Assembly: GCA_027622905.1 (NCBI GenBank)
Contig: JAQBVV010000021.1
Location: 1 to 32,803 of the forward strand
Length of the DNA: 32,803 nt
Reading direction: 5' to 3'
Origin: Acidobacteriota bacterium
GTDB lineage: Bacteria; Acidobacteriota; Vicinamibacteria; Vicinamibacterales; UBA2999
Shown here: in pieces, positions 26,266 to 29,258 of the stretch
Position numbering within the stretch: position 1 is the stretch's first letter
Layout of the letters: every line of letters begins with the position of its first letter
The notes under the pieces: model-generated
Database searches by the model: none
Seen by the model: only the letters and a program-made list of their open reading frames with translations
What the model was told of the DNA's origin: nothing
Translations under genes and position numbers: made by a program

Positions 26266-26399
26266 CAGGGGCCACCACCCTGTCCAGGCCCACGGTCCGA
26301 GAGCGTTTTTCGATTCGGTGGAGACCGAAAAACGCGGGAAAGCGCTTTTCGAAAAGGCCTGGCCCCTGCGAGAAGCCCTAGACCCAAGCGAAAAGCGCT
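26266..26399. repeat. Nested inverted repeats, REP/MITE-like element
   Basis: Several perfect inverted repeats are nested here. CAGGGGCCA (26266-26274) pairs with TGGCCCCTG (26360-26368), CCAGGCC (26284-26290) with GGCCTGG (26356-26362, overlapping), and GCGTTTTTCG (26303-26312) with CGAAAAACGC (26326-26335). AGCGCTTTTCG (26341-26351) pairs with CGAAAAGCGCT (26389-26399), and CTTTTCGAAAAG (26345-26356) is itself a palindrome. It sits between divergent genes, so it is not a terminator. A mobile palindromic repeat (REP or MITE) is the likeliest reading; no transposase is present. Confidence 0.6.
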
Positions 26400-26441
26400 G
26401 TAGGTGTGCGGGTGGCGCTGGTGTGCCGGGGGTGGTTGCGG

Positions 26442-26447
26442 TATAAG
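26442..26447 (+). promoter_or_regulatory. -10 element suggesting a leaderless transcript
   Basis: TATAAG lies 6 bases before ATG 26454, so the start site would be at or next to the start codon. No clear -35 is seen at normal spacing. A Shine-Dalgarno sequence is also absent before this ATG, consistent with leaderless translation. Confidence 0.4.
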
Positions 26448-26453
26448 ACGACC

Positions 26454-27887
26454 ATGCCTACAACGCGAGTACTGCTGGTGGTGTGCCTCATGGGCCTCAT
26501 GTGGGCTCCCGCATCAGCCCAGCGGCCCACCGATCCGTTTCCGACGCCGATAGCCGCCACCGAGGGCGTCATTCGAGTCAGTTTCGTGGAGTTCGCCTCG
26601 ATTCCCGACGCCGGTGGCGAGGCCGCCCGCATGATGCTCCTGGTGGACGAGCCGGGTACAAGGCGTCTGTTCGTCAACGACATGCGCGGCCCGCTGTTCA
26701 CGGTCAGCTATGATGGCGGCACCGTCACGAACTATCTGGACATCAACGCCAGTAAATGGGGAGTCAACGTCGAGTCTGGTGGCCGGGAGCGCGGCTTCCA
26801 GAGTTTCGCCATCCATCCACAGTTCGGTGAGCCAGGCACGCCAGGCTTCGGCAAGTTGTACACCTGGACCGATAGCAGTAATACGGCGCCGCAGCCCGAC
26901 TTTTCTCCTGGTGGGGGGGGCAACACACACGCCACGATCCTGCTCGAGTGGACGGCTGCCAATCCTGCGGCGGCGACCTACGATGGTGGCGCTCCGCGGG
27001 AGTTGCTGAGACTGGAACAGCCGTTCCGCAACCACAACGCCGGCCATATGAGTTTCAATCCACTCGCCGTACCAGGCGCCGGCGATTTCGCCCTGTTGTA
27101 CGTGGGCGTGGCGGACGGCGGCAGCGGTGGCGACCCGCTCGGCGTCGCGCAGAATCTTGGCGGGCCGTACGGCAAGATCCTGCGCATCGACCCGCTGGGT
27201 TCAAACAGCGCCAATGGCAGGTACGGCATTCCCGCGGGCAACCCGTTCGCCAGCGACGGCGACGACGCCACCCTCGGCGAGATCTACGCCTATGGCGTGC
27301 GCAACCCGCAGCGATTTGGTTGGGATTCACGAAACGGCAACCTGTTTCTTGCCGATATCGGACAGAACATCGTCGAGGAACTCAGTCTCGTCACCCCGGG
27401 AGCGAACCTCGGGTGGAACGCGTGGGAGGGCAGCTTCGGGTACGTCGATCGTTCGGGGGTCCGTCTGACCGATCAGCGCGGCGATGCCGGCGTGACGTAT
27501 CCGGTCGTGGAGTACGCGCAGGCTGATCCGTTACTCGGGTCGGATTCCGCGATCACAGGCGTGCATGTCTACCGCCACGATGCGATTCCGCAACTGGAGA
27601 ACCTGGTGCTGTTTGGCGACTTCCCCAGCGGCGAGATCTTCTATATTCAGGCCGACGCACTGCCAGATGGCGGGCAGGATGCCATCCGCAGGATTCTGCT
27701 CAACGACGATGGAGAACCGAAGACGCTGCTCGAGCTGATCCGGAGGAAGAACGTCGAGCAAGGTCGAGCACCGGCGTCCCGTGCGGATCTGCGCTTCGCC
27801 GCGGGGCCGGACGACCAGGTGTTTCTACTCAACAAGCACGACGGGACGATCCGCCTGCTCGTGCCCGACGCGAGCGCTTCGCGATGA
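26454..27887 (+). CDS. PQQ-type sugar dehydrogenase (aldose dehydrogenase-like), secreted
   Basis: The 477-residue product has a signal peptide (about 1-23, PTTRVLLVVCLMGLMWAPASA) and then a beta-propeller resembling soluble aldose and sorbosone dehydrogenases. Recognisable segments are RGFQSFAIHPQFG, HNAGHMSFNP (catalytic-His region), GGPYGKILRIDPLG, YGVRNPQRFGWDS, LFLADIGQNIVEELSLV and GANLGWNAWEG. Such enzymes oxidise sugars at the periplasmic face using PQQ; binding here is inferred and I have not placed all cofactor residues. ATG 26454 is preferred over the in-frame GTG at 26406, which would add residues that do not look like a signal peptide. A G8 run lies in frame at 26913-26920. The amidohydrolase follows after 69 bases. 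Confidence 0.85.
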   Translation: MPTTRVLLVVCLMGLMWAPASAQRPTDPFPTPIAATEGVIRVSFVEFASIPDAGGEAARMMLLVDEPGTRRLFVNDMRGPLFTVSYDGGTVTNYLDINASKWGVNVESGGRERGFQSFAIHPQFGEPGTPGFGKLYTWTDSSNTAPQPDFSPGGGGNTHATILLEWTAANPAAATYDGGAPRELLRLEQPFRNHNAGHMSFNPLAVPGAGDFALLYVGVADGGSGGDPLGVAQNLGGPYGKILRIDPLGSNSANGRYGIPAGNPFASDGDDATLGEIYAYGVRNPQRFGWDSRNGNLFLADIGQNIVEELSLVTPGANLGWNAWEGSFGYVDRSGVRLTDQRGDAGVTYPVVEYAQADPLLGSDSAITGVHVYRHDAIPQLENLVLFGDFPSGEIFYIQADALPDGGQDAIRRILLNDDGEPKTLLELIRRKNVEQGRAPASRADLRFAAGPDDQVFLLNKHDGTIRLLVPDASASR

Positions 27888-27916
27888 CGGCGCGACGGTA
27901 GACGGACGGACAAGAA

Positions 27917-27940
27917 GAAAGAAAGAAAGAAAGAAAGAAA
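27917..27940 (+). repeat. (GAAA)6 tetranucleotide repeat beside a ribosome binding site
   Basis: Six consecutive GAAA units are followed by AAA and GAAGGAG, the ribosome binding site of the amidohydrolase gene. They lie in the untranslated space between two genes. Slippage would change the length just upstream of the Shine-Dalgarno sequence, not the frame, so any effect would be on expression level. Confidence 0.85.
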
Positions 27941-27956
27941 AAAGAAGGAGATGTCA

Positions 27957-29258
27957 ATGCGCATTGTGAGACCGACACGACGCTTCCGCATGCTCGCCGC
28001 GCTGCTGTGTGCCGGCCTTCCGCTGGCTGCGGCGTGTGGCGGGGCTGACGACAACCAGGCTGCCGAAGGGGCGGGTGTCACCGCATTCGAAGGCGCACGG
28101 CTCATCGTGGGCGACGAGAGCGCGCCGATCGAGAACGCCACGTTCCTGGTCCGGGACGGACAGATCGTGCAGGCTGGTGCGAGCGCCGATGTGGAGGTGC
28201 CGGCTGGCGCCACCCGCGTCGATCTGAGCGGCAAGACCGTGATGCCGGCCATCATCGACACGCACACGCATCTCCGCTCGCAAGCCCGCGAGACGCTGAT
28301 CGAGGACCTGCAGCGCCGCGCGTACTACGGCGTGGCCGCGGCGATGAGTCTCGGGCAGGACGTGGGTGACGTGCCGTATCAGGTGCGCGGCGAGGTCCTT
28401 CCTGGCACCGCGCGGTTCCGGACGGCAGGTCGCGGCATCACGAGGCCGGAGCCGGGCAGGGGTGAGGTGCCGTATTGGGTGTCGACCGATGCGGAGGCGC
28501 GCGGGGCGGTGCGAGACCTGGCTGCGCTCAACGTCGACATCGTCAAGATCTGGGTGGACGATCGCGACGATATGTACGACAAGCTGACGCCGGAACTGTA
28601 CGGCGCGATCATCGATGAGGCGCACATGCACGGTCTGCGTGTCACGGCCCACATCTTTGAGATGACGGATGCGGTGGGACTGCTGCGCGCGGGTGTCGAT
28701 GCCTTCGCGCATGGCGTCCGCGACCGCGATATCGACGACGAATTCGTCACGCTGGCCCAGGAGCGCCCCGATCTGGTCCTCGTGCCGAACCTGCCCAACA
28801 GAGGGGTCGCGGTCGATGTCAGCTGGGTGGCCGATACGGTGCCCGCCGATGACCTGGCGATGCTACAGGCGGCGGCGATCGATCGGCCGGACGCGCAGGA
28901 GGCATTCGGGATTCAGGCGCGCAACCTGGCGAAGCTCAACGCGGCGGGTGTACGGATCGCCCTTGGCACTGACGGAAATACGCCCTATGGGCCACACGTG
29001 GAGATGGAGGACATGGTGGCGGCGGGCATGTCGCCCCACGATGTGATCGTGGCGTCGACACGCAATTCCGCCGACTTCATGCGCCTCGCTGATCTCGGGA
29101 CCGTGGAGGCGGGCAAGAGTGCCGACTTCATCGTGCTCGATGCGAACCCGCTGGACGACATCACGAACACGCGGCGCATCAGTGCCGTCTACATGCGCGG
29201 CGCTGCGGTTGATCGGCAGGGCCTGCGGGCCGGCTGGGCCGCTGGCGGCGCAGAGTGA
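27957..29258 (+). CDS. Amidohydrolase-family lipoprotein (imidazolonepropionase-like)
   Basis: The 433-residue product starts with MRIVRPTRRF, a hydrophobic stretch and LPLAAACGG, a plausible lipoprotein signal (cysteine 27). Metal ligands typical of the family follow: D101-T-H103-T-H105, K197 in DIVKIWVDD (possible carboxylated lysine), H232 (VTAHIF), H252 (DAFAHGV) and the Asp of ALGTDGN. Two ATG codons are in frame. AAGGAG ends directly against 27951 but sits 6 bases before 27957, so the latter is the start. It probably follows the sugar dehydrogenase in one transcript. A substrate cannot be named; related proteins cleave cyclic amides or peptides. Confidence 0.88.
   Translation: MRIVRPTRRFRMLAALLCAGLPLAAACGGADDNQAAEGAGVTAFEGARLIVGDESAPIENATFLVRDGQIVQAGASADVEVPAGATRVDLSGKTVMPAIIDTHTHLRSQARETLIEDLQRRAYYGVAAAMSLGQDVGDVPYQVRGEVLPGTARFRTAGRGITRPEPGRGEVPYWVSTDAEARGAVRDLAALNVDIVKIWVDDRDDMYDKLTPELYGAIIDEAHMHGLRVTAHIFEMTDAVGLLRAGVDAFAHGVRDRDIDDEFVTLAQERPDLVLVPNLPNRGVAVDVSWVADTVPADDLAMLQAAAIDRPDAQEAFGIQARNLAKLNAAGVRIALGTDGNTPYGPHVEMEDMVAAGMSPHDVIVASTRNSADFMRLADLGTVEAGKSADFIVLDANPLDDITNTRRISAVYMRGAAVDRQGLRAGWAAGGAE

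Follow-up and report, generated by a model that had tools for sequence, protein, structure and literature searches.

A single (GAAA)6 microsatellite ahead of the Shine-Dalgarno site of an Acidobacteriota amidohydrolase gene, probably a lineage-specific product of slippage

Tandem repeats placed beside a ribosome binding site raise the question of whether changes in their copy number set the output of the gene behind them. Here, we examine a (GAAA)6 array located directly ahead of an amidohydrolase gene in an uncultured bacterium of the Acidobacteriota, asking what the array is, how it arose and whether it could act as a switch. The window, i.e., the whole stretch of DNA analysed (32,803 nt), is contig C140 of a 3.43-Mb assembly in 239 contigs.

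Anatomy of the gene spacer

The features on which the argument depends are as follows.

26406-27887, plus strand: upstream gene, an open reading frame (ORF) for a glucose/sorbosone dehydrogenase-like secreted protein (GSDH; Pfam PF07995, E = 1.9e-21)
27888-27956, plus strand: intergenic spacer, 69 nt between the dehydrogenase and amidohydrolase genes, open in the frames of both
27912-27951, plus strand: all-purine run of 40 nt, enclosing (GAAA)6 and the Shine-Dalgarno site
27917-27940, plus strand: (GAAA)6 microsatellite, read directly from the sequence
27945-27950, plus strand: Shine-Dalgarno (SD) site AAGGAG, read from the sequence, with GGAG-type sites at the equivalent place in relatives
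27951-27953, plus strand: in-frame ATG touching the SD (zero spacing), probably unused
27957-29258, plus strand: amidohydrolase-superfamily gene, 433 aa (Pfam PF01979, E = 1.1e-21)

Re-reading the sequence confirmed, at every coordinate, the sequence-only reading that (GAAA)6 lies just before the SD of the amidohydrolase gene, and also that the ATG at 27951 has no usable spacing to AAGGAG, as the SD ends at 27950. Directly 3' of the array stands AAAGAAGGAG (27941-27950). Tandem Repeats Finder (TRF) delimits the array at 27915-27946 (period 4, 8.2 copies, 93% match); the perfect period-4 stretch measures 26 nt. On the minus strand, a 206-aa ORF (27647-28267) crosses the array, which it reads as FFFLSFFLSFFLS; lying opposite two coding regions, this antisense ORF looks spurious.

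The dehydrogenase gene ends with a stop codon at 27885-27887. Its more likely start is the ATG at 26454, to judge from the signal peptide that follows, and the listed GTG is likely too early (26406-26456). Just before this gene, at 26350-26400, stands a 20-nt unit repeated imperfectly in tandem (2.6 copies, 72% match). The downstream product belongs to the amidohydrolase superfamily (78 bits for Amidohydro_1, PF01979, whose cutoff is 25), and among the 25 of 49 NCBIfam families listed, none reached its cutoff. It carries a lipobox-like LAAAC motif and is presumably a lipoprotein. Matches to it occurred in 97 of the 99 genomes searched; the source genome itself holds 14 (E of 0.001 or better), and many relatives hold ten to twenty-five each.

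The amidohydrolase start is most likely the ATG at 27957, given an SD-to-start spacer of 6 nt (AAGGAG, then ATGTCA, then ATG) and the beginnings of related proteins at this position: MRIM (G003), MRFM (G026, G011) and MRLM (G022) in place of MRIV here. Each of these four starts follows an SD-like GGAG site, as judged by eye on the printed DNA. The protein of G016 is less similar in this region and begins MQI, and several further relatives begin MH. Only 27951 and 27957 offer in-frame starts 3' of the upstream stop; the former, with zero spacing and at odds with the start conserved in relatives, is probably not used.

Rarity of the array

We compared the array with five simulated 3.43-Mb genomes (order-3 Markov model, trained on a 328-kb sample). 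In the simulations, period-4 runs reached at most 15-19 nt, against 26 nt at the array, and runs of purines or pyrimidines at most 16-23 nt, against 40 nt; exceeding all five simulations, neither the array nor the purine run is attributable to chance. With perfect tandem units beyond chance, the array is a true microsatellite. It is also the sole (GAAA)3 or longer in the whole assembly, and the only perfect period-4 tract of at least 14 nt in an 8.6% genome sample plus the window. One other place in the genome, in contig C66, has a purine run of at least 24 nt, and this site appears to be the coding end of a gene.

The repeat was also considered as a feature of leaders in general. Genome-wide, this was ruled out because (GAAA)3 is found nowhere else in the genome. 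At the level of the order, (GAAA)5 was present in 1 of 162 genomes, the source genome, and in 0 of the 161 others. A phylum-wide feature was likewise rejected: the pattern of (GAAA)3, up to 15 nt, GGAG, 4-9 nt and ATG occurred in 7 of 396 genomes, the source genome included, and its backward control gave none. In three of the six other genomes the ATG opens an ORF exceeding 300 aa; in the remaining three the ORFs have 18, 32 and 71 aa, with masked residues in the 71-aa one. Nothing in these matches points to a shared system. Purine leaders show a weak excess over the backward control across the phylum. No second genome of the same genus surfaced among the 162 order genomes and the 99 searched for the amidohydrolase.

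The same gene in relatives

Among 91 loci encoding relatives, of which three are the window itself, the upstream sequence sufficed in 89; L071 and L033 were left out as short contig ends. The 86 other loci comprise 75 distinct upstream sequences, some genomes having been counted twice via two collections. In the stretch compared (120 nt ahead of the point aligned with residue 1 and 15 nt beyond it), the array was absent from all 86; the longest purine run was 14 nt, and GAAA stood in tandem at most twice.

The dehydrogenase gene lies directly ahead of the amidohydrolase gene in three family members, with gaps of 29 nt (G003), 14 nt (G026) and 78 nt (G016) compared with 69 nt here, none containing the array. 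Elsewhere among the relatives, the pair is separated or the neighbouring gene was not seen. Being absent from the three relatives with the same neighbour, the array is lineage-specific, and the neighbourhood is partly kept around a spacer drifting in length and content. The G016 spacer (L064, bases 1414-1491) contains two palindrome-like copies, GGCCGGCTTCAGCCGGCC and GGCCGGCTGTAGCCGGCC, unrelated to the array and perhaps a REP-like repeat.

Copy number and translation

Because the array stands 5' of the SD, neither the SD-to-start spacing nor the reading frame depends on copy number. Between the upstream stop and 27951 there is no in-frame ATG, GTG or TTG, which means that slippage cannot produce on/off frame switching from such a start; the array sits between the stop codon and the start at 27951, and a frame change with copy number, one mark of a contingency locus, is absent. 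A scan for sigma-70-type promoters found none in 27600-28100, spacer included.

We folded the spacer together with some 60 nt from the gene on either side while varying the array from 0 to 12 units, a prediction that applies to naked RNA only. For arrays of 0, 6 and 12 units, predicted mean accessibility was 0.79, 0.78 and 0.72 at the SD, and 0.73, 0.69 and 0.67 at the start codon. The array itself was predicted to be 0.97-0.99 unpaired.

These results bear on the proposal that slippage would alter the purine tract and spacing upstream of the SD and that repeat and start choice interact. The array is indeed a tetranucleotide array of a potentially slippage-prone type upstream of an SD. The supposed interaction with start choice is not visible: the position of the array 5' of the SD fixes the SD-to-ATG spacing and the frame, relatives that lack the repeat use the equivalent of 27957, and predicted accessibility is near-flat. 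An effect of slippage on expression through the purine tract is possible in principle, for which ribosomal protein S1 or standby binding would be a route.

Origin and function of the array

We favour, with a probability of about 0.72, the interpretation that the array is a lineage-specific microsatellite born of slippage, forming an A-rich, unstructured leader and serving at most as a weak, constitutive landing or enhancer region. Replication slippage would have expanded a purine-rich SD leader, located in the spacer between the two genes, to (GAAA)6. In the mRNA, the array would remain unpaired and A-rich just 5' of a good SD serving the ATG at 27957, at most a weak and constitutive region for ribosome landing or enhancement. 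Changes in copy number would then act slightly or in a graded way, any regulatory effect being small or absent. In this reading, the array is perhaps mildly helpful for ribosome landing, and not a phase switch.

Two observations sit less easily with this interpretation. Of all places in 3.43 Mb, the array lies beside an SD, as would suit a role in expression. Additionally, purines make up 95% and A 67.5% of the leader just upstream of the SD, against averages of 51% and 19% in 107 crude SD leaders (maxima 0.95 and 0.70, a set that possibly includes the amidohydrolase gene's own leader); given this extreme content, selection for translation may apply.

A rival reading makes the array a selected translation enhancer, an A/G-rich, unstructured leader that recruits the 30S subunit via S1 or a standby site, its repeat form being incidental. 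The predicted lack of pairing throughout the array and the extreme A content beside a strong SD are consistent with such a role, which we nevertheless consider unlikely, as none of the relatives examined has the array before the same gene. The T7 gene 10 ribosome binding site (RBS) resembles the leader here in its similar AAGAAGGAGAT wording; its upstream enhancer is not known to be a tandem repeat. In that RBS an established enhancer precedes the SD, differing from our array in having been experimentally tested, and most variants were enhancer-independent in Agrobacterium (PMC8748333), which speaks against this reading.

Slippage might instead grade translation or transcript level, as at a contingency locus, yielding mixed amidohydrolase amounts within a population. 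In Haemophilus influenzae, tetranucleotide arrays of more than 2 units (i.e., at least 3) count as candidate phase-variation tracts, a threshold that the array passes; taking the bracketed counts of Table 3 in that paper as within-ORF, the tetranucleotide tracts of H. influenzae are coding and shift the frame, whereas ours is non-coding and single (PMC2651432). A further case is the (AGAT)n array of Moraxella catarrhalis uspA2, like ours a microsatellite of tetranucleotide units that precedes an ORF and stays outside the coding frame, for which mRNA differences of up to 3.37-fold are reported (PMC7302503). That array is strain-variable, was tested at 12-19 units, acts on mRNA level and precedes a gene for a surface protein (PMC7302503). 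Six units are short by comparison, and ours is single, adjoins the SD and precedes a metabolic-type hydrolase with no obvious character of a surface antigen. Neither the genome sample nor the window showed a set of such loci, copy number barely affects predicted accessibility, and neither frame nor SD spacing changes; a contingency locus is therefore improbable here. Our literature search for GAAA repeats together with phase variation found nothing. Still less credible is a single translational rheostat, in which GAAA slippage by the SD would give graded, heritable expression of a secreted amidohydrolase with frame, promoter and SD spacing unchanged.

Finally, an assembly or strain-mixture artefact, with the array misassembled or its true copy number different, would fit a fragmented assembly (239 contigs, 4.13% contamination) and is nonetheless most improbable, as 24 nt is far below usual read length, both flanking genes are intact and the same gene pair is adjacent in three relatives.

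Implications

Acidobacteria are barely mentioned in the literature we found on simple sequence repeats and phase variation. As it stands, the locus is a clean example of a single microsatellite arising in a gene spacer; were its copy number to vary and to tune expression, the Acidobacteria would join the groups with microsatellite-based tuning.
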